IMG/VR virus record: IMGVR_UViG_3300043778_000063
Location: 1 to 64,000 of that record
DNA: 64,000 nt
Reading direction: 5' to 3' (one strand)
Origin: a virus
In this document: in pieces, positions 431 to 63,246 of the stretch
Numbering within the stretch: position 1 is the first letter of the stretch
Layout: each line of letters opens with the position of its first letter
Made by a program: the position numbers and the translations under genes
Notes under the pieces: model-generated
What the model saw: the letters and a program-made list of their open reading frames with translations, nothing else
What the model was told of the DNA's origin: nothing
The model's database searches: none

Positions 431-618
431 GATTTGAGTGCGAGGCGACCTTTCTCGAAAAGTGTCGAAAGGATGAGGCGGCCGTGCGTGAGTTGCTCGG
501 TCGATGGGTTTCAGAATTGGAGCCCGCCGTCTGTTATCATCGCGGCGAAATTATCGGTCTCACGCTTGCCGATGCTCCGCTAGGTTCTAAGCCATTTATT
601 TTGAGGCGAGATGACTAA
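427..618 (+). CDS. Small hypothetical protein
   Basis: 63 residues from GTG, overlapping the previous stop as GTGA and running 8 bases into the methyltransferase gene. It has two Cys and a charged helical N-terminal half. No family recognised. The tight coupling to both neighbours is the main evidence that it is real. Confidence 0.55.
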   Translation: MRFECEATFLEKCRKDEAAVRELLGRWVSELEPAVCYHRGEIIGLTLADAPLGSKPFILRRDD

Positions 619-1702
619 ATCCAAACCACTCGCCATCGATCTTTTTGCAGGCCTTGGAGGCTGGTCTCACGGTCTGCTCGCCGAGGGCTGGGATTGCATC
701 GGTTTCGACATCGAACAGCACGTCTACGGCGATCACCGCTATCCCGCGCAGCTCGTGGTGCAAGACGTTCTGACGCTGCATGGCTCGCAATTCCGCAACG
801 CCGACCTGATCGTGGCTAGCCCGCCGTGCCAGGAATATTCGTGGATGGCCATGCCGTGGTCGAGGGCCAAGGCGCATGCGGCGGAGATCCGAGCCGACAC
901 CACGGGCGCCGAGCTGGCGCGGCTCAACCGTCTGTTCAACGCCTGTTTCCGCATCCAGCGCGAGGCGTGCGAAGCGGCCGGCCGCCATATCCCGATGGTG
1001 GTCGAGAACGTCAAGGGTGCGCAGCCGTGGGTTGGCCGTGCGCGCTGGATGTTCGGATCGTTCGCGCTCTGGGGCGACGTGCCGGCGCTGATGCCGATTA
1101 CGGGACGCCGAAGTCATATGAAATGCCCTAACGAAAGTTGGAGCCCATCGCGTCCGAGCTACACTAAAGATCACGCTTGGAAAGATGAGGCGACCAAAAA
1201 CAACGGCGGCTCATGGTTCAACGTCGCGCACAACACGACCAGCGGCAAAGGGCGTAACCCGGATGGGCGGAATCCGAAATGCGATTGCCAGCATCCTGAG
1301 ACAACGCCGGCAGGTTTCGCCGCAGTCAGCGTCAACTGTCCAGTTCATGGGAACGTCGGCCCGACGCTCTGCACCACGTTTCCATCGGCCCGATCGGGCG
1401 GTGCTGATCCAATGTGGCGGCGCGGATTTCAGGCGACGGCCGCAGATCAATTGCAGGCCGAAGGCGTCAAGCAGCGCGGCAGCGGCGCTGCTTGGTTCGA
1501 CGAAGCGCTGAACGAGCGTCGGCGGAATGCCACGGCAGCCGGCATGAAGACGGGAAACCGGTGGTTCGGCGATGGCAATGAACGGTCGCCGATGCGCCAG
1601 CACAACAGCAAATCGAACGCTCGCAAGATGGCCTGTGCCATGATCGCCAAGATCCCCGAACCGCTGAGCCGCCACATCGCCCGGACGTTCAAGCCTCGCT
1701 GA
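611..1702 (+). CDS. DNA (cytosine-5) methyltransferase
   Basis: 363 residues. It would transfer a methyl group from S-adenosylmethionine to C5 of cytosine in DNA. Motif I is AIDLFAGLGGWSHG (residues 8-21). Motif II is GFDIE (31-35). Motif IV is VASPPCQEYS, with nucleophile Cys73. Motif VI is VVENVKGA (about 130-137). A motif-X-like helix AMIAKIPEPLSRHIA lies near the C-terminus. Between the two halves, about residues 195-260 hold an insert with CDC, a later C-P-V-H and another Cys, which may bind metal and takes the place of a conventional target-recognition region. It ends three bases before the convergent minus-strand operon. A role in protecting phage DNA from restriction is likely but inferred. 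Confidence 0.88.
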   Translation: MTKSKPLAIDLFAGLGGWSHGLLAEGWDCIGFDIEQHVYGDHRYPAQLVVQDVLTLHGSQFRNADLIVASPPCQEYSWMAMPWSRAKAHAAEIRADTTGAELARLNRLFNACFRIQREACEAAGRHIPMVVENVKGAQPWVGRARWMFGSFALWGDVPALMPITGRRSHMKCPNESWSPSRPSYTKDHAWKDEATKNNGGSWFNVAHNTTSGKGRNPDGRNPKCDCQHPETTPAGFAAVSVNCPVHGNVGPTLCTTFPSARSGGADPMWRRGFQATAADQLQAEGVKQRGSGAAWFDEALNERRRNATAAGMKTGNRWFGDGNERSPMRQHNSKSNARKMACAMIAKIPEPLSRHIARTFKPR

Positions 1703-1705
1703 TCC

Positions 1706-2914
1706 TCACCAATCCAGGAACCGCTTCCCGGCCTCGGGGATCTCAACGCCAGATTCATGAAGGATCTTGTACATTTGCGCTTGCCCGGCCAGGGAAGACG
1801 CAACGTTTTTCACCTCTTCTGGAACGCTATTCCAAGCCACCCCGCCGTCATCCCGAAATGTTGGCTTCCACCCGCTAGATAGAGCCCCTGAGATGATTTT
1901 CTCGCGGTGCCGGTAAACGTCGTCTTTCTGCTTGGCGGCCTCCTGGCGTTGCTTTGCTTCCTCTGCGGCGCGCTCAGCCGACGACATGTTCTTCCAGCGA
2001 TCAAAATCCTTGCGGTATTCGGCATGTTCTTCCCTGACCTCGGCATGCTCCCCATTGATCACCTGATCGATTTCCTCGATCGCCGATTTCAATTCATTGC
2101 GGAGACTTTCAATTCCGTCCCGCAAGGCCTCCTCCGCCTCTTCTATATCGGCCTCAATTTCGTCGGCATCAATTTCAGCAGTCGGAATCTTATCCCCGTC
2201 TTCGTCGAGGCCGCGGATGAGATGATCCAGCGTATCGGACAGCGAATCGACCTCTTCGAACTGACCGGACAGATCCTCAACGACGCGGGCTATCTTGATG
2301 GATTGAATGTGTGACAGGCCGAAATCCTCATGACTGACTTTCTCGATAGTAGCCCCTTCAGGCTTGTCTCCAATTAAAGCCGACAACTTGTTCGTGATTC
2401 CGATCAGATTATTGCGGACGTTAGCCGCCATGCGCGGGGCTTTTTCATACGCATATTCTTGCGCGCTCTGTTCCGCCTCAAACTCCAGCCCCTCTTCCAG
2501 TTCTGCGCGATCCTCTGGCGTGATGTCCCATATCTCGCCGAGCACGCTGTCGAACTCATCGTTCAGGTCGACCAACTTGGAATGCAGCCGCTCGCTCACC
2601 TTTGCCGCCTTGTCGAGCTTCAGTTCCTTCGCTGCCTTCGAGATGGACTGAGCCGCGCCAGATCCGAACTTGCCATCCGGCGCCCGCGGGTGCTCCGATT
2701 CCACGAACTCAGCGTCGCCCGCGAGGAAAGGGAGGACGGCATCGCTAGCCCCGCCTCCCTTGTTTTTCGGATCAAATCCGAGCATGGCAATGACATCTTC
2801 CGGTGTCTCATCAAGCTCAACATCGTCATCAGGTACTTCTGTGATTTGCCGTTTCCTCCAATCAGGAAGCGGAGTTTCAGCGGTTCCGAATCTCGCGTCT
2901 GGTAACATCATCAT
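1706..2914 (-). CDS. Coiled-coil protein with HPRAPDGKFGSG linker, next to portal
   Basis: About 402 residues from the ATG at 2914, which overlaps the portal TGA as ATGA; an in-frame ATG at 2929 gives a longer alternative. The first ~75 residues are acidic. Then comes the linker HPRAPDGKFGSG, almost the same as the one in the portal (HPRDDDGKFGSG). The rest is long charged helices (heptad-like E/K/A-rich stretches around 200-330) and a short globular C-terminus. I do not recognise an enzymatic domain. Position directly after the portal is where MuF-type minor head proteins usually lie, so it is probably a capsid-associated protein. Confidence 0.75.
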   Translation of the reverse strand: MMMLPDARFGTAETPLPDWRKRQITEVPDDDVELDETPEDVIAMLGFDPKNKGGGASDAVLPFLAGDAEFVESEHPRAPDGKFGSGAAQSISKAAKELKLDKAAKVSERLHSKLVDLNDEFDSVLGEIWDITPEDRAELEEGLEFEAEQSAQEYAYEKAPRMAANVRNNLIGITNKLSALIGDKPEGATIEKVSHEDFGLSHIQSIKIARVVEDLSGQFEEVDSLSDTLDHLIRGLDEDGDKIPTAEIDADEIEADIEEAEEALRDGIESLRNELKSAIEEIDQVINGEHAEVREEHAEYRKDFDRWKNMSSAERAAEEAKQRQEAAKQKDDVYRHREKIISGALSSGWKPTFRDDGGVAWNSVPEEVKNVASSLAGQAQMYKILHESGVEIPEAGKRFLDW

Positions 2915-5616
2915 GCTGCGATCTTCCACGCTGCGAATACGGACGGATTGATATAGCTCTGCAATGCAATCACCGGCGTATTTCCGAGTTTCGAAGATAC
3001 CACTTTTGCCACCTCCATGACGGCCTTTTTATAATCCTTCTCGTTTTTTGGAGCTTCACGATTGGCTACCTCGCTAATCGCCGTGCGCGTGCCAAGCAGA
3101 GTTCGGAAATCTTTCGTTTTGAATCCACCCCCATCGAAGGAATGGACATGGTCCAGCAGCATCTTTTCATTGATAGGAAATAGCTGCCCATTGTCGCCCG
3201 CTGCTGACTTGCGCTCTCGAAGCATTGCCGCCGTTCCTGGATCGGTGACGGGAAGATCAAGCGAGACGCCCTTTTTACCGACAAATTTCAGCGAAACCCT
3301 CTCGCCATCGACAACGACATGCTTACCTTCCAGGGTAGTGGCTCCATACGCTTTCTTCTCTGCTCCAGTATCGTCTTCGCTGCCGGGTCGAATGCCTGTG
3401 GTCATGATCAGGTGGGCGCAATCCGCAGCGGCCCGTTTCTTAGGATCTCCGGATTTGCGAGCTTCTTCATTTTGCGCGTAGATCGAATTGAATTTCTGAT
3501 TAAGCTCATTGATGCGGGAAAACTTTGCTGCTGCTTGCCCGGCAGAAAATTCCGCTGAATAAACTGCCTGCCTACGCCCCTTCACATCCTTGCCTGTCGC
3601 CAGCAATGCCGCCTTCGGATCACTGCTGAACGTCACGTCGGTCCACGCTGGAGGAATCTTGAGCACTTGGATATGCGACGGGAGAGGTGACCCGGTAGAT
3701 GTAACGCGCTTGCCATCCACAATCTTTGTCGGCTGATGTGATGACTTAGAGCCTGATGATCCTCCACTTCCAGATCCGAATTTTCCGTCGTCATCTCTCG
3801 GATGCTTACTTTCGTCGAACGGAGCTTCGTCTTGCGCGCCGCCGCTGGCCTCTTTCTCGAACTCGGTCGCCGCGGAGCCAGCGCCTGGCCCGAGCAGGCC
3901 CTCCTCGGCCGGCGGCTCCGGCAGGTCGTCCGGTTTGAGATTCGTGTAGGGCAACTCTTTGTCGGCGATGATTATCTTGCGGACCTCGTCCGGCCCGACG
4001 GCTCCCATGTCGACATACTTCTGATGCGTGTCGGCGCTGTCCTTGTCCTTCTGTCCTTTCTCTGCCTGCGTGATCGGTCGAAGCTTTTCCCATCGATGCG
4101 TAATTTCCGGATCGATTTCACCCCACAATGACAATTGCTCGAAATTAATAGTTGTTCGAAGATGGCTGTCGAGGACACGCGCTTGATACGCAACAATATT
4201 GTCGTCATAGACCTCGATTTCACCTTCCGATGAGGCGTTCAAACCAGCGGGCTGAATTCCGGTGAATTTTACGAGCGGAAGGCGTCCAGGAAAGGCCATA
4301 TGCTCCTGAGCTTGCGCCTGGAGTTCGTGTAGGCCGGCCAGCGAGGCGGATACGTTCTTGAAATCTTCCGTTTTGTTATTGATTACGAAAGTTCCCATGT
4401 TATCGCGGAACATGTTGAATGCGGCGACTCGCGTCATCAGCGGTGTCACATTTCCCGGCTGCATCAGCGTCGATAGATCGGTCGCCAGCACCATGACCGA
4501 GAACGAGTGGATCAGCGCGTTAACGCTCGATACTGTCGTAATGAAGCGGTCGACGTACGGCTTCGCCATCTGCGTCAGGCTGAGGCCGCCGAACGCATAG
4601 GCTGGCTTCAGCATGTCCGGCACCGGGTGGGGGATGAATGTCAGCAGCCGCGAGCCGTGGAATTCCTGGCCGTTCACGTACCAGACCTGCGGATTGTACC
4701 AGTCCTGGCGCCACGGATATGCGGCGTTGTACATCAGCGGGTAGGCCCACATGGGCTCGATCGTCTTCAGCGCCTTGAACGACCCGATCGGGACTTTGGT
4801 CTTGCTGAGCGCATCGCGGCCATTCCCGATCGGGTTCTTGAGCTCCTCGACGTTGATGTCGTCCGAATCATTGGTCCGGATGTCGTGGAAGAGATGCGAG
4901 CGCCCGAAGAAGCCGCCGTTGCGCGCCTGCTCGTAATAGCGATCGCGGACCGCCAGGCGCAGCTGGTCGTCCTGCAGCGCCTTGACCTTGTCTGTCTTGC
5001 CGGCCGCGCCAACGCGCTTCTTGCGCTCGTCTGGATCGGCCATGCGCTCATCGTAGCCGGCCGGGTCCTTCTCGCGGTCCTCCTGCTGTGTCTTCTCGTC
5101 GCCGACGACGTCGAAGTCGATCCATTTCCTGGTCGCGTCATCAGCGATCGTCTCGGCCATGACGCGGTACTCCGGGCGCAGCGCGAGCTCCGACAGGTAG
5201 GTGTAGCCGAGGAACATGAAGCCCTCGCCGGCGAATCCGCCATCGCCGCCGGCGAGCCACTGATTCGAGGCAAACCCCAGATTGGCCGTCAGGGCGCTGT
5301 CCTGCGCCATCAGCAACTTGGAATCGGATGGAACCGCGGCCTTGGGGAACGCTGGCAGTTGGAACGGGTTGTCGGCCGACGTCCGCTCCTTCTTCGCCGA
5401 GTACTTCCGACTGATCTCCTCGATCTCAGGTAGCATCATCGCCCAGGCACGGGGATCAATCGCGGGGCCGACCTCGCTCTTGGGCTCAGCCGGCGCGAGG
5501 GGCGCGCGCGGCGCCAACTTCGTCTCCGCGACCTGGCGAGGCTTGTTGGGGTTCGGCTTGCGCCCCTGGCCGCGGCCGCCGCCGCCCCAGTTCGGGTTCC
5601 GCGGATTGGGCGCCAT
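2911..5616 (-). CDS. Portal protein (DUF1073-like) fused to a topoisomerase IB-like domain
   Basis: 901 residues, far longer than a usual portal of 450-550. Residues ~95-560 have DUF1073 portal character (GYTYLSELALRPEYR, then TIADDATRKW at about 140-165, and a conserved C-terminal helix region with SLWGEIDPEITHRW). A Gly-rich joint follows (KHPRDDDGKFGSG at ~604-616, then a Ser/Gly run). Residues ~640-901 match bacterial/pox topoisomerase IB in order: LPSHIQVLKIPPAWTDV, ATGKDVKGRRQ, GIRPGSEDD (Arg743), FVGKKG (Lys781/782), KTKDFRTLLGT (Arg838), KLGNTPVI (Asn879, where bacterial enzymes also carry Asn) and QSYINP (Tyr888). All catalytic positions of the family are present. One continuous frame, no sign of a frameshift or internal start with a strong ribosome-binding site. 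The catalytic inference rests on motif reading, not on an alignment program. Confidence 0.88.
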   Translation of the reverse strand: MAPNPRNPNWGGGGRGQGRKPNPNKPRQVAETKLAPRAPLAPAEPKSEVGPAIDPRAWAMMLPEIEEISRKYSAKKERTSADNPFQLPAFPKAAVPSDSKLLMAQDSALTANLGFASNQWLAGGDGGFAGEGFMFLGYTYLSELALRPEYRVMAETIADDATRKWIDFDVVGDEKTQQEDREKDPAGYDERMADPDERKKRVGAAGKTDKVKALQDDQLRLAVRDRYYEQARNGGFFGRSHLFHDIRTNDSDDINVEELKNPIGNGRDALSKTKVPIGSFKALKTIEPMWAYPLMYNAAYPWRQDWYNPQVWYVNGQEFHGSRLLTFIPHPVPDMLKPAYAFGGLSLTQMAKPYVDRFITTVSSVNALIHSFSVMVLATDLSTLMQPGNVTPLMTRVAAFNMFRDNMGTFVINNKTEDFKNVSASLAGLHELQAQAQEHMAFPGRLPLVKFTGIQPAGLNASSEGEIEVYDDNIVAYQARVLDSHLRTTINFEQLSLWGEIDPEITHRWEKLRPITQAEKGQKDKDSADTHQKYVDMGAVGPDEVRKIIIADKELPYTNLKPDDLPEPPAEEGLLGPGAGSAATEFEKEASGGAQDEAPFDESKHPRDDDGKFGSGSGGSSGSKSSHQPTKIVDGKRVTSTGSPLPSHIQVLKIPPAWTDVTFSSDPKAALLATGKDVKGRRQAVYSAEFSAGQAAAKFSRINELNQKFNSIYAQNEEARKSGDPKKRAAADCAHLIMTTGIRPGSEDDTGAEKKAYGATTLEGKHVVVDGERVSLKFVGKKGVSLDLPVTDPGTAAMLRERKSAAGDNGQLFPINEKMLLDHVHSFDGGGFKTKDFRTLLGTRTAISEVANREAPKNEKDYKKAVMEVAKVVSSKLGNTPVIALQSYINPSVFAAWKIAA

Positions 5617-6742: not shown

Positions 6743-6816
6743 ACGATATAGGGAGATTTGTCCCCCGTGTCCAGCGCCACGCGCGGCCTATTCCCAGATT
6801 TCAGCACCGGCCGCAT
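6739..6816 (-). CDS. Possible 25-residue peptide coupled to terL
   Basis: The ATG overlaps the terminase stop as TGATG and is preceded by a very strong GGAGGT ribosome-binding site encoded in the last terminase codons. The peptide (MRPVLKSGNRPRVALDTGDK...) has no recognised family. Confidence 0.4.
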   Translation of the reverse strand: MRPVLKSGNRPRVALDTGDKSPYIV

Positions 6817-8507
6817 CAATACCTCCGTTGTGGCGCGCCTGCCTGCGCGATCTGCCTCAGCATGTCCATCGTGATTTCAACCGGTGGCTGCTCCATCGGT
6901 GCGTAATGGATCACGACCGCATCAGCCTGATTCGGGCTCTTGCGGCCGTTCGGCTTCTTCTCGATGATGAGCTTGCCGACCTCGTTTTGCTTGTAGGTGG
7001 CCTGGCTCAGTTCCGCGACGAGCTTCATCAGATTCGGATTCTCGGAATTCAGCGAGATGATGTCGTCCGGCGGGCAGGCAACCCCAGTCTCGACCCAGCG
7101 GTAAGTCCGCTGGAACCGCTTCCGTAGCGACCACCACGATTGCGCCTTGTGGTTCCCGAAATAGTCCTGATTCGTGCGACCGGCGTCGCCCTCCGACCCG
7201 ATGGTGCCCTCTACGATCCCCTCCGGATCATAGACCCCTTCCGAGCCGCGATAGCCGATCGCCCGAATCACCCGGGCCTTGTTCTTGACGCGCCGCTCGT
7301 TGATCACCCGGGCATCGCCCCGGACATCTGCGCCCATGCCGTCGGCATCGTACCGGAACTCGGTGTAGCCGTTCTCATCGCAGACATCGAAGACATATTC
7401 CGTCGACGAGAAGATGTCGCCGCCCTTGCCACTCCACTCATCGGTCTCGACGACCTCGGTCCCCTCGCATCGCGCGATCGCGTTCTTGTCGTCCCCCTCG
7501 TCGGCGACGTCGAACGCAACGCCCTTCTTGCCCGACGGCGCGATGCCGAGCTTTTTCTTGGCATCGATCGCCGCGCGCACCCATAGGCCTGGGATGACCA
7601 CACCATGGATCGAGGCCGAATAATCCCGGTCGATCTCCTGGGCGACAATGACCGGATCCAGGTCCTCGCACTGGCGCTCATACCAGGCTTCGTCCTTTCT
7701 CGGGTCCTCCCTCCAGTCGAAGATGAAGACGTCGATCTTGCCGCCCCACCGCTTTTGCGCGAACAGATTGTTCATCCCGCGGACCGAACTCATACCAATC
7801 TGGCAATTGGTCGTCTGCGATAGCGCGGCTGCTACGAGCTCCTGGCGCGGGTGGTGAGCTTCCTCATCGAAGAAATACAGCGTAGTCCGATCGCCGCGGC
7901 CGATGTCGTCACCGCCTTCGCCAGCGATGATGGAGCCGGTCTCGGGGAACGTGATGCGCATGTACGGCGCATCACGCCAGGGGATGAACCCCCCGCGGAA
8001 CTCCTCTGGCAGATGCTCCATGAACATCCTGCCCTTGGGCAATAGCGGTTTGTAGGTACCGATCTTGTCCACGTATTCAGTCTTACGCGACCCGAATCCG
8101 ATCGCCACGCCATCGTTGAACAGACACAGCGTGCAGGATAGCGAGAGCGCCAGCCACGACACACCCATGTCGCGCGATTTCTCACACAGGCCAGGCCGGC
8201 GGTTCTTCCACCGATCGATTACCCAGTCGATCCACTCGCGTTGCCGCGGGAACAAGATGAACGGGATCAGCGTCGGCAGACCGATGTCGGCGTTGCGGGG
8301 GTCGTGCGTCACCCCCCAGTCGTTGATGAAGTCGGCCGGGTGCGCCGCGTAATAGGTCTTGAGCTCTGGTAATCGCTCTGGATGCTCGCGGAGCTTCTCG
8401 AGGTTCTCAAGCCGCGCCCGGAAGATCGCCGCATATTCCGGCTGCTTCCAGTTCATCGCCAGAACCGGGAGGCTCTCGGTCTGGTACTCGATCTTGGGGA
8501 TGTTCAC
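6816..8507 (-). CDS. terL: Terminase large subunit
   Basis: 563 residues from the GTG at 8507, which overlaps the HNH gene stop as GTGA; longer starts would lie inside that gene. It cuts and pumps phage DNA into proheads. The ATPase has a variant Walker A, CEKSRDMGVSWLA (about residues 108-120), of the K/R-SRxxGxS type, and Walker B TLYFFDEEAHH (about 209-219). The nuclease half begins at GVAFDVADEGDDKNAIA (about 329-345) and ends with a late acidic/basic cluster NGRKSPNQADAVV. The small subunit is probably the gene at 11204-11521. Confidence 0.95.
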   Translation of the reverse strand: MNIPKIEYQTESLPVLAMNWKQPEYAAIFRARLENLEKLREHPERLPELKTYYAAHPADFINDWGVTHDPRNADIGLPTLIPFILFPRQREWIDWVIDRWKNRRPGLCEKSRDMGVSWLALSLSCTLCLFNDGVAIGFGSRKTEYVDKIGTYKPLLPKGRMFMEHLPEEFRGGFIPWRDAPYMRITFPETGSIIAGEGGDDIGRGDRTTLYFFDEEAHHPRQELVAAALSQTTNCQIGMSSVRGMNNLFAQKRWGGKIDVFIFDWREDPRKDEAWYERQCEDLDPVIVAQEIDRDYSASIHGVVIPGLWVRAAIDAKKKLGIAPSGKKGVAFDVADEGDDKNAIARCEGTEVVETDEWSGKGGDIFSSTEYVFDVCDENGYTEFRYDADGMGADVRGDARVINERRVKNKARVIRAIGYRGSEGVYDPEGIVEGTIGSEGDAGRTNQDYFGNHKAQSWWSLRKRFQRTYRWVETGVACPPDDIISLNSENPNLMKLVAELSQATYKQNEVGKLIIEKKPNGRKSPNQADAVVIHYAPMEQPPVEITMDMLRQIAQAGAPQRRY

Positions 8508-8833
8508 TTGGATTCCTCGGCAGCGAAAGACTTTGGGCAGCCGGCATTTTCGCGATGATGGTGCGGCCTCCAATTCGTAGGCACTCGGCGCCGGCCTGGT
8601 CTCCACCAATAATCATGCTCAAATCGGTAGACCGCCCATTGCTCTTCGGTCATGTCCCGCTTGACGTGGTTGCACGTGGCGCATGCCCAGACGAGGATGC
8701 GGCCGCCCTTGGATCTCGGCTCGACGTGATCCCTGGTTGGATAGAGCAGCGGCACATCGGTGCTCATCGGCCGCGCGCAATAGGTGCAGAGCTTGCCGTT
8801 CTGCCGGCGGGACCTGACAAACGGCTTCGTCAT
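8504..8833 (-). CDS. HNH endonuclease, terminase-associated
   Basis: 109 residues. The HNH core is LCTYCARP, then RDHVEPRSKGG, then ACATCNHVKRD: two CxxC zinc knuckles around the His-His-Asn centre. HNH proteins encoded next to the terminase assist cleavage in HK97-like packaging systems, and this gene overlaps terL by 4 bases. The C-terminal 30 residues are basic and probably disordered. Confidence 0.88.
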   Translation of the reverse strand: MTKPFVRSRRQNGKLCTYCARPMSTDVPLLYPTRDHVEPRSKGGRILVWACATCNHVKRDMTEEQWAVYRFEHDYWWRPGRRRVPTNWRPHHHRENAGCPKSFAAEESK

Positions 8834-14448: not shown

Positions 14449-14807
14449 TCATCCCCTCTGAGTGATGGTCTTTCATGATTCGGCCGCACGAGCTGCCGCT
14501 CGCCGTTGAAATCGACCACGGTCCACCCCATCGACAGCAGCAGCGGGAGCGATACCGTCGGGACGCCATTCGCATCAACCTGCAGCGGTTCGACTCCGGC
14601 CTGTTCGTAATCGCGCCGGATCGCCCGCTTCGTGGTCTCAAGAGTGAACTGCCGCGCGGATTCATGCCGCGCCGCCTCAGCGGCAGCCTCCTGTGCGGCG
14701 GTCGCTGCATTCCGCTCCTTCAGCCGGTCCAGATACGCGCGGCGCTCTGCGGCCTCATGGCGGTCGAAGATGTCCTCCGGTTCCCAGGGCTCGTTGAAGG
14801 ATCTCAT
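14445..14807 (-). CDS. Hypothetical protein
   Basis: 120 residues. A long charged helix (AAERRAYLDRLKERNAATAA...) precedes a small beta domain (GVPTVSLPLLLSMGWTVVDF). Couples to the methyltransferase upstream and the ASCH gene downstream. No family recognised. Confidence 0.6.
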   Translation of the reverse strand: MRSFNEPWEPEDIFDRHEAAERRAYLDRLKERNAATAAQEAAAEAARHESARQFTLETTKRAIRRDYEQAGVEPLQVDANGVPTVSLPLLLSMGWTVVDFNGERQLVRPNHERPSLRGDE

Positions 14808-15748
14808 TCTGCGGCCCTCGCGAATAGAGGGCTGTCGTCGTCGACGCGGCGGCGGGCCATGGCGGCGTAGGAGGGATTGAGTTCGATGAGGATCGCGTTG
14901 CGGCCCTCGCGCGCGGCGACCATGCCCACTGTGCCGCTACCTCCGAACGGGTCGAGGACGATGCCACCGACCGGGCATCCTGCAAGGATGCATGGCGTAA
15001 TCAGTGCCGGCGGGAATGTCGCAAAGTGTGCCTCGGGATAGGGATCTGTGACTGTGGTCCATACCGTGCGCTTGTTGCGTTTTGTGACAGGCCCAAGGGT
15101 GCTGGCCTGGAAGCTACGGTTGTGTCGGTTACCGCTTCCTGGTCGCGTCGCTTTCGGCGAATTTCCCGTGCCGCGTGAATGGGTATTGGGACTGCAGTCC
15201 TCGGCGATCGCCGCTGCATCGTAAAAATATTGCTCGGACTTGGTAAGCATGAAGAGAAATTCGTGCGTACAGGTTGGTCTGTCCTTGACGTTCTCCGGTA
15301 GCGGGTTGAGCTTGTACCAAACGACATCCCGCCGCAACCACCAACCGGCATCACGCGCAGCGAAGGCGAATCGCCAGGGCATGCCAACCAAGTCCTTTGG
15401 TTTCAGGCCAGTCTTCCGCTTCTCTCGGCCGATGCGCGTCTCGCCGCCATGCAGATATCTCGTGTGTTTGCCCCCGATGGCGCCGCCCCCCTTGCCATCG
15501 TTGGCATAGCAATCACCGAGGTTAACCCAAGCTACGCCATCGTTTCGCAGCACCCGCTTCACCTCGTTGAACACTTCGACCATGACTAGCAGCCAATCCT
15601 CGAAGTTTTCTTCCTGCCCGATCTGACCTTCGACCTCGTAATCTCGGAGCCCCCAATAGGGCGGCGACGTTACGACGCAATTCACGCTCTGGGCCGGCAG
15701 GAGTTTCAACTGCTCGAGCGCGTCGCCGATGATGATCTTGACAGTCAT
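14804..15748 (-). CDS. DNA N6-adenine or N4-cytosine methyltransferase (beta class)
   Basis: 314 residues from the ATG at 15748 (ATGA with the upstream gene); the frame extends upstream but only as a shadow. The catalytic motif TSPPYWGLRDY (about residues 28-38) comes first and the SAM-binding motif VLDPFGGSGTVGM lies near residue 280, the order of the beta class. The segment DVVWYKLNPLPENVKDRPT is typical of phage members that modify short palindromes. Protects phage DNA from restriction or marks it; target sequence unknown. Confidence 0.9.
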   Translation of the reverse strand: MTVKIIIGDALEQLKLLPAQSVNCVVTSPPYWGLRDYEVEGQIGQEENFEDWLLVMVEVFNEVKRVLRNDGVAWVNLGDCYANDGKGGGAIGGKHTRYLHGGETRIGREKRKTGLKPKDLVGMPWRFAFAARDAGWWLRRDVVWYKLNPLPENVKDRPTCTHEFLFMLTKSEQYFYDAAAIAEDCSPNTHSRGTGNSPKATRPGSGNRHNRSFQASTLGPVTKRNKRTVWTTVTDPYPEAHFATFPPALITPCILAGCPVGGIVLDPFGGSGTVGMVAAREGRNAILIELNPSYAAMARRRVDDDSPLFARAAE

Positions 15749-62133: not shown

Positions 62134-63246
62134 CTAAACGCCGAGCATCCCAGCTATGCCAACCGGCATTCTCGTGACAACACCGAAGATCCCGCTCGTG
62201 TATTTCTGCAGCCAACTTGAGGCCTGCGGGATCAGTTTGTGTGCGCGGAGCTTCTCGTTGTAGGCTGGATAGGCGACTTTGCCGCCATCGATGTTATCGA
62301 CGATGATCTGAAACACGTTCCCGATGGCGGAATCGCCCTGGGTGTTGTTGGTGGTTTTCTGCCCGTACTGCGGCGCGGGGACAATTTTCATGTTCGGGAA
62401 GCCGCGCTTCAGGAGATCCTTGACGAAGACGCCGAACGAGTTCGCGAATTCCAGGGCAAGTTGCGACTGCGGCGATAGCGCCAGCGTCATCGGCGAGTCC
62501 ATCTCAACCGCACCGTTGGTCTGATTGATGATCTGCTCGACCACCGCCAGGATGTCGTTGTAGACCTCGTTGGCAGTTGCGGCCGGCGAGCCGGCGTTGA
62601 ACCATGATGTCCCGCCCCACGCCTTGATGGCGGGCGTCAAAAACGCCGAGAGGTACGGGTTGTTGATCAAGCCGTAGTTCTGCAGGCCAGCCAGGCCGAA
62701 GGCATATCCGAGGTTTCCGAATCGATTGAGCAATCCGGCCGCAGCGCTGGTGAGTTCGCCGACGTAGTTGATCCGCATCAAGCCGGCGCGCTCGGTCTCC
62801 CGCTCGCCGTAGTTGACGAAGGTCTGGAACAGATAGGACTGGAGTTGCGGGTAATTGAAGTTGATGCCGGTGCGGCCGTTGTTCGAATAATCGTCGTAGC
62901 TGGAAACTTCGCCGTTCTCCTCGATGACCGGGAAGATGTAGGTTTCCATTAGCCAGTCGCCGACCTTGCGCTCACCACCGAGGATCTTGGCGATCTGCAG
63001 CGGGGCAAATACGAACCGGATCACATCCGGGCTGATGCCGGTGGTGAGCATCGCGGGGAGCGCCGCATTCGGATCGGTGCCCAAGGTGCCGGCGGCATCG
63101 AACGCCATTTGTCTGAGCGACTTGTCCCCCGTGTTCTTCCACTCATCGGGAATGAACATTCGGGCGCCATCGAAAATAACCCCGCCCTCGTGGTTAAGGA
63201 CGTGCCTCACCTTGTTAAACTCGGCGATTGCTTGGTTCCGGTCCAT
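62134..63246 (-). CDS. Major capsid protein
   Basis: 370 residues. DFIRFVFAPLQIAK-type segment (VIRFVFAPLQIAKILGGERK), WLMETYIFPVIEENGEVSSY DDYSNNGRTG, NYPQLQSYLFQTFVNYGERE TERAG and LGNRFGNLGYAFG-like region are typical of the DUF2184 capsid family of myoviruses. HK97-fold shell protein. Position just after the capsid accessory gene fits. Confidence 0.9.
   Translation of the reverse strand: MDRNQAIAEFNKVRHVLNHEGGVIFDGARMFIPDEWKNTGDKSLRQMAFDAAGTLGTDPNAALPAMLTTGISPDVIRFVFAPLQIAKILGGERKVGDWLMETYIFPVIEENGEVSSYDDYSNNGRTGINFNYPQLQSYLFQTFVNYGERETERAGLMRINYVGELTSAAAGLLNRFGNLGYAFGLAGLQNYGLINNPYLSAFLTPAIKAWGGTSWFNAGSPAATANEVYNDILAVVEQIINQTNGAVEMDSPMTLALSPQSQLALEFANSFGVFVKDLLKRGFPNMKIVPAPQYGQKTTNNTQGDSAIGNVFQIIVDNIDGGKVAYPAYNEKLRAHKLIPQASSWLQKYTSGIFGVVTRMPVGIAGMLGV

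Follow-up and report, generated by a model that had tools for sequence, protein, structure and literature searches.

Introduction

That enzymes fused to portal or MuF proteins are packaged in phage heads and co-injected is an established proposal, and the domains discussed for such polyvalent proteins include ADP-ribosyltransferase (ART), 2H, PBECR, InPase, GNAT, and NUDIX (PMC5512222, PMC9503650). For the Dar proteins of phage P1, trimming of a head-internal protein by the prohead protease as well as co-ejection have been reported (PMC12810830). As for the portal itself, the DUF1073 portal of phage E217 is a dodecamer with a C-terminal barrel projecting into the head, in which residues 97-528 of the 765 residues of gp19 were built (PMC10329688). 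The present analysis deals with a gene of a soil-type tailed phage, i.e., the IMG/VR entry IMGVR_UViG_3300043778_000063 of 72,706 bp, whose positions 1 to 64,000 constitute the stretch of DNA analysed here (hereafter the window); in this gene, a DUF1073 portal protein is continued by a linker and a type IB topoisomerase (TopIB) domain. From metagenomic contigs and the open-access literature, we consider it probable, at roughly 60%, that the gene encodes a portal subunit bearing a complete and selectively maintained TopIB as an exchangeable C-terminal passenger, which would reside in the head lumen as cargo and probably be injected to relax DNA.

The fusion protein and its topoisomerase IB domain

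The fusion gene is a single open reading frame (ORF) of 901 codons with an ATG start on the minus strand of the window (5616..2911), in agreement with an earlier note on this DNA that had reported at 2911-5616 a 901-codon frame joining a DUF1073 portal to a TopIB-like region; the plus-strand reading of 2911-5616 was discarded because of 13 in-frame stops. The encoded protein of 901 aa comprises (i) the DUF1073 portal core (residues 148-532; 4021..5175, on the minus strand like all features of the fusion), matching PF06381 at E=7e-57 as well as the E217 portal structures 9b41/8fvh, (ii) a linker (residues 569-625; 3742..3912) modelled mostly at low confidence, with a predicted local distance difference test (pLDDT) below 50 at residues 569-599 and 615-625, and (iii) the TopIB part, a compact region of about 272 aa (residues ~640-901), where the N-terminal domain Top1B_N_bact (residues 648-677; 3586..3675; PF21338, E=5e-8) precedes the catalytic core Topoisom_I (residues 693-873; 2998..3540; PF01028, E=4.8e-18), the domain continuing to residue 901. 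A sequence search of the PDB with the fusion retrieved the E217 portal at 1e-28, the Deinococcus TopIB 2f4q at 2e-26 (residues 647-895) and the variola TopIB at 5e-8. With a core homologous to E217/BcepNY3-type portals and a terminase gene adjoining, the protein belongs to the DUF1073 (Phage_portal_3) portals. For the full chain, AlphaFold gave a moderate predicted template modelling score (pTM) of only 0.47, and the relative placement of the portal and TopIB domains is therefore left uninterpreted.

The peptide blocks singled out in the earlier note are all present, namely IPPAWTDV at residue 654, GKDVKGR at 675, GIRPGSE at 741, FVGKKG at 778, KDFRT at 835, LGNTP at 877, and SYINP at 887. The catalytic set is made up of Arg743 (3388..3390), Lys781 (3274..3276), Arg838 (3103..3105), Asn879 (2980..2982) and the nucleophile Tyr888 (2953..2955), the last one having been correctly named in the earlier note. 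R743, K781, R838, and Y888 are unchanged in 93 of 93 complete alignment rows and N879 in 92 of them; in the single exception (L088), Asn is replaced by His, as in the poxviral and eukaryotic TopIB enzymes. The AlphaFold2 model of the TopIB domain, obtained from 64 aligned sequences, reached a mean pLDDT of 96.3 and a pTM of 0.89 without any disordered stretch and, when compared with the PDB by Foldseek, matched TopIB structures exclusively from rank 1 to 22 (E from 2.5e-14 to 1.6e-5), while tyrosine recombinases occurred in the same ranking at E of at least 0.02 only, XerH and P2 integrase being among the distant matches.

Given this catalytic fold, the N-terminal domain and the complete Arg, Lys, Arg, His/Asn, Tyr set, the assignment to TopIB proposed in the earlier note is borne out by Pfam, PDB search, AlphaFold2, Foldseek, and conservation alike, and that the C-terminal domain of the fusion is a complete TopIB with an intact predicted active site is fully supported. 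Membership in the tyrosine recombinases or integrases does not apply, as these rank behind 22 TopIB structures and the family searches reported no recombinase family; a recombinase relic is ruled out by the fold ranking together with the invariant active site, and a chance occurrence of the motifs by the Pfam, PDB, and fold scores. Since the active site is near-invariant and the ratio of non-synonymous to synonymous substitution rates (dN/dS) lies between 0.065 and 0.285 in the five pairs of relatives with unsaturated synonymous sites, the domain is maintained by purifying selection among its relatives.

Recurrence of the domain on procapsid proteins

Two scans of IMG/VR for encoding loci yielded 24 and then 180 loci, of which 80 were kept. 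The DUF1073 portal-TopIB arrangement, for which the earlier note had suggested looking in phage databases, occurs in 31 sequences when near-copies and the window are included, and on independent contigs. The domain is also carried by lambda-type portals (L008/L054, L077, L092), an HK97-type portal (L087), Mu-type portals (L057, L097), MuF minor head proteins (L075, L071, L079, L102), and DUF2213 prohead proteases (L045, L055, L090), and it stands behind NUDIX or ART domains in further ORFs. Standalone TopIB genes are found inside head modules as well, e.g., in L034 with the order portal, MuF, TopIB, protease, capsid, and of the 48 TopIB loci whose upstream part is short, 30 have head-gene homology nearby or in the same ORF. 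Since many independent contigs carry the same kind of fusion, an assembly error joining two genes, a possibility raised at the outset, is excluded in general. Of separate interest, a Pfam intein match lies within the MuF of L102.

On the TopIB tree, the DUF1073-fused members do not form one clade (approximately unbiased test, p=2.4e-6), which rules out a single origin of this fusion, and the architectures require about 31 changes. The row closest to the TopIB of the window is L044, which is not portal-fused, followed by L046, assigned to the DUF2213 group solely by the sequence likeness of its N-terminal part. The viral set was gathered with viral query peptides, so that its single branch with respect to 5 cellular sequences is not a proof of one viral origin. 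Among GTDB genomes, a search for close prophage relatives returned only 7 distant TopIBs (31-34%), and the annotated phage collection contained no portal-TopIB fusion. Judging from the sequences, then, TopIB appears as a recurrent and exchangeable passenger, grafted repeatedly onto unrelated procapsid proteins.

A conserved peptide ahead of the passengers

The linker between portal and TopIB contains the peptide ESKHPRDDDGKF (residues 602-613; 3778..3813), where H605, P606, and G611 are invariant across 24 DUF1073-TopIB fusions and E602, R607, and F613 are conserved in at least 90% of them, the rest of the linker being variable. Its general form, [FW]xExxHPR...GxF, often precedes TopIB and other passengers, and of 72 non-redundant ORFs, 41 have the strict peptide no more than 70 aa ahead of TopIB, vs. 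0.0 in shuffles. The peptide is present as well in proteins with ART, NUDIX, zeta toxin, Acb1, GNAT plus ART-PolyVal, and DUF2213 plus ART domains. Up to five copies occur per chain (L069), several of them ahead of a recognised domain; this 1,767-aa chain (L069:1-5301) combines TopIB, NUDIX, and ART domains with five linker peptides, and in L027 three linkers precede three segments. The isolated Pseudomonas phage Orimi01 (PP179326) encodes a portal-linker-ART protein (L236:2270-4381) annotated as "hypothetical protein," which likewise joins a DUF1073 portal, a linker with DFDENKHPRSDDGKFGSN and a C-terminal enzyme but has an ART as passenger where the window has TopIB. A portal piece from a Helicobacter prophage shows a weak linker match together with Pfam LPD3, "Large polyvalent protein-associated domain 3."

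Because synonymous codon variation within the motif is similar to that elsewhere in these genes, the peptide is conserved as a protein, and a recombination seam at the DNA level is ruled out on the same ground. A general prohead-protease site was also rejected, the other head proteins of this genome being without the motif.

Exchange of passengers on the same portal

A search with the portal core only found 378 relatives; among the 80 kept, one carries TopIB, namely L220, on the same contig as L006. The portal of L155 (88% identical) bears a different passenger, joined directly to the portal, and that of L158 (95% over 307 aa) the same other passenger as L155, along with an apparent intein; the portal of L156 (79% identical) has no passenger and that of L157 (70% identical) an ART. 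Acb1, of the anti-CBASS (cyclic oligonucleotide-based antiphage signalling system) nuclease family, is encountered as a portal passenger or within a linker-bearing protein (L165:5327-9325; L135:2688-5204). Insertions that resemble inteins and have HINT-type sequence (e.g., NHPIWLPSIN) split the DUF1073 portal core in L158 (4922-5869), L162, L164, L174, and L179, apparently at the same place across these several relatives.

At the DNA level, positions 5494-3841 and 2760-2653 of the window are contiguous in L155 and L158, at whose junction a cassette of 1,081 bp (2761..3841, minus strand) is absent; it comprises the linker, TopIB, the stop and, from the next gene, the start together with the initial ~50 codons. 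The portal part has a G+C content at third codon positions (GC3) of 0.80 and the remainder of the next gene one of 0.66, as against 0.53 in 2914-3840. The cassette at this exact junction is most simply explained as a recent insertion between the portal and its old passenger. The next gene (1706..2914, minus strand; ~402 aa, helical), whose start overlaps the portal stop (ATGA, 2914-2911), is homologous to the portal-fused passenger of L155/L158, with which it has the stretch GGGASDAVLPFLAGDAEFVES.HPRAPDGKFGSG in common, and it shares the ending GVEIPEAGKRFLDW with the passenger of L155. This gene, for which neither the family searches nor the annotated phages gave any match, contains the linker peptide once more, as FVESEHPRAPDGKF (2666..2707, minus strand).

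Genome setting

Upstream of the fusion gene lies the gene of the terminase large subunit (6816..8609, minus strand), assigned by weak profile matches and with 90-92% DNA identity to the corresponding stretch of L155/L158. The major head protein is encoded at 62134..63246 (minus strand), and the head module runs beyond the window end with a NUDIX-DUF2213 protease (record 65684-66955, L026:5685-6956, minus strand), in which DUF2213 follows both NUDIX and a stretch resembling a zinc finger (CxxCxGxG), and with MuF (record 68525-69652). As a tail sheath, an E217-type baseplate hub, and a tape-measure-like protein are encoded besides these head proteins, the phage is, by its gene content, contractile-tailed and equipped with its own prohead protease. 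A C5-cytosine methyltransferase (611-1702, plus strand) adjoins the head genes on the opposite strand, an N6/N4 methyltransferase is encoded at 14804-15748 (minus strand), and a low-complexity Arg-Ala repeat ORF at the record start (11-214) is possibly an assembly end effect.

Proposed role and alternative explanations

Since the barrel of the E217 DUF1073 portal projects into the head, a TopIB following the barrel is most likely located in the head lumen, and homology to this portal supports the location at the portal vertex previously suggested. With twelve copies of the fusion per head, TopIB would then lie in the lumen beside the DNA. The subsequent steps are proposed with less assurance: proteolysis at or close to the HPR...GKF linker might free TopIB from the portal, the same genome encoding a DUF2213 prohead protease, and the enzyme might then exit the head together with the DNA and, at an early stage of infection, relax supercoils of the incoming phage DNA or of the host DNA. 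Type IB topoisomerases work without ATP and without Mg2+ and would thus be suited to action straight after delivery. Several co-resident passengers (ART, Acb1, and zeta toxin) seem to be aimed at the host or its defences, a trait shared with head-packaged polyvalent proteins.

An enzyme anchored above the portal channel could instead serve as a swivel inside the head, removing torsion while DNA is pumped in or ejected. The tether would hold as many as 12 copies next to the path of the DNA, and TopIB is found on four different portal families, more kinds than for any other partner. The torsion relief for packaging that the earlier note had envisaged is nonetheless disfavoured as a needed function, because the closest portals (79-95%) are without TopIB and because TopIB is likewise carried by MuF, prohead proteases, and standalone proteins; moreover, the passengers found in the same place, i.e., ART, Acb1, and NUDIX, have no known packaging role, so that we regard the swivel as unlikely. 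Portal, MuF, and prohead protease share incorporation into the procapsid, with the portal alone at the channel, and this common property, together with near-identical portals devoid of TopIB, favours cargo loading over a necessary part of the motor. Still less probable is an action late in the producing cell, e.g., on concatemers or host DNA, the fusion ensuring only late expression and placement near packaging: the gene does belong to the late module, TopIB could act before head assembly, and large phages such as PaBG, Lu11 and others have standalone TopIB genes (PMC7824862), but the domain is joined time and again to proteins of the procapsid interior in particular, which indicates loading and not late timing alone.

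A strand-transfer or end-joining enzyme acting like a tyrosine recombinase on the incoming genome, rather than a relaxing enzyme, seems very improbable to us; the superfamily has its catalytic chemistry in common and XerH and P2 integrase turn up as distant fold matches, but the 22 best-ranked structures, the TopIB N-terminal domain and the family searches speak for a topoisomerase. The idea of an inactive relic or an assembly artefact hardly deserves credence, since the GC3 of the cassette, unlike that of its flanks as in a chimera, has to be set against an open frame, an active site invariant in 93 relatives, dN/dS well under 1 in relatives, and the many contigs with such fusions.

Several observations weigh against TopIB as a loaded and injected passenger. 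The strict peptide is missing from 31 of the 72 non-redundant TopIB ORFs, many of which have variants, e.g., ESRDDHGRW or SGNFGHSGRPGQVGG. Within this genome, it is confined to the fusion and the next gene and does not occur in the capsid protein, the protease, or MuF, for which reason cleavage by the prohead protease at the linker amounts to a guess; cleavage elsewhere is possible. Folded domains would have to unfold or else pass the tail tube, and the portal tether could hold TopIB in the head. Regarding the cassette, GC3 is the one line of evidence on its direction, i.e., gain here or loss in L155/L158. The cargo enzyme, which the earlier note had offered as an alternative, fits the evidence; from that interpretation, TopIB, the active site, the vertex, and the cargo role have been retained and the packaging need has not, while the recurrent exchangeable cassette and the conserved linker had escaped it.

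As a bolder and tentative proposal, the HPR...GKF peptide may be a transferable head-loading or processing tag of many unrelated tailed phages, and the domain a virion topoisomerase acting on DNA right after injection, in parallel to the virion TopIB of poxviruses. The enzymes apparently loaded into heads by phages would thereby include one for DNA topology, and loading would be modular: the same domain family is joined to six or more kinds of head protein, a conserved peptide stands ahead of it, and near-identical portals have different passengers. Whether phages need supercoiling control in the first moments of infection, and what signal makes a head admit an enzyme foreign to it, become testable. 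By means of the linker, proteins of choice could be brought into the heads of laboratory phages, and a second enzyme is hidden behind many "hypothetical" or "portal" annotations, as in Orimi01.

Comparison with known systems

The TopIB enzymes of Deinococcus (2f4q/3m4a) and variola (2h7f) have the same fold, with N-terminal and catalytic domains and the Arg-Lys-Arg-Asn(His)-Tyr set, but are only about 23-29% identical in fold alignments and are free enzymes, whereas TopIB here is the C-terminal part of a portal. Poxviruses and mimivirus carry TopIB in their virions, where it is not known to be attached to a portal. Standalone TopIBs are likewise phage-encoded in PaBG, Lu11, NCTB, Rhizobium phages, and Bacteroides phage BS162P1 (PMC7824862) but are only 24-32% identical to the TopIB of L093, used as the query, and annotated as separate genes. 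The phage TopIBs described up to now are separate genes, for the most part from large phages. MuF polymorphic toxins resemble the present proteins in having exchangeable enzyme domains at the C-terminus of a head protein and differ in that the cassettes on MuF are toxins, topoisomerase not being mentioned (PMC5576092). A published portal-TopIB fusion was not found in the open-access literature searched, consistent with the earlier note, whose author knew of none.

The closest likeness is with the polyvalent, portal- or MuF-fused early effectors, in which enzyme domains on portal or MuF belong to head modules, occur several per chain, and are thought to be packaged and injected (PMC5512222, PMC9503650). 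By architecture, the fusion belongs to this class, in which a head-module portal or MuF protein bears an effector domain that can be exchanged for others of the kind. No topoisomerase is among the domains named in the main text of the paper on polyvalent proteins (PMC5512222), while here TopIB recurs on MuF, on DUF2213 proteases, and on portals of four families; what appears new is TopIB as a recurrent passenger, the class of early effectors joined to portal or MuF being known already.

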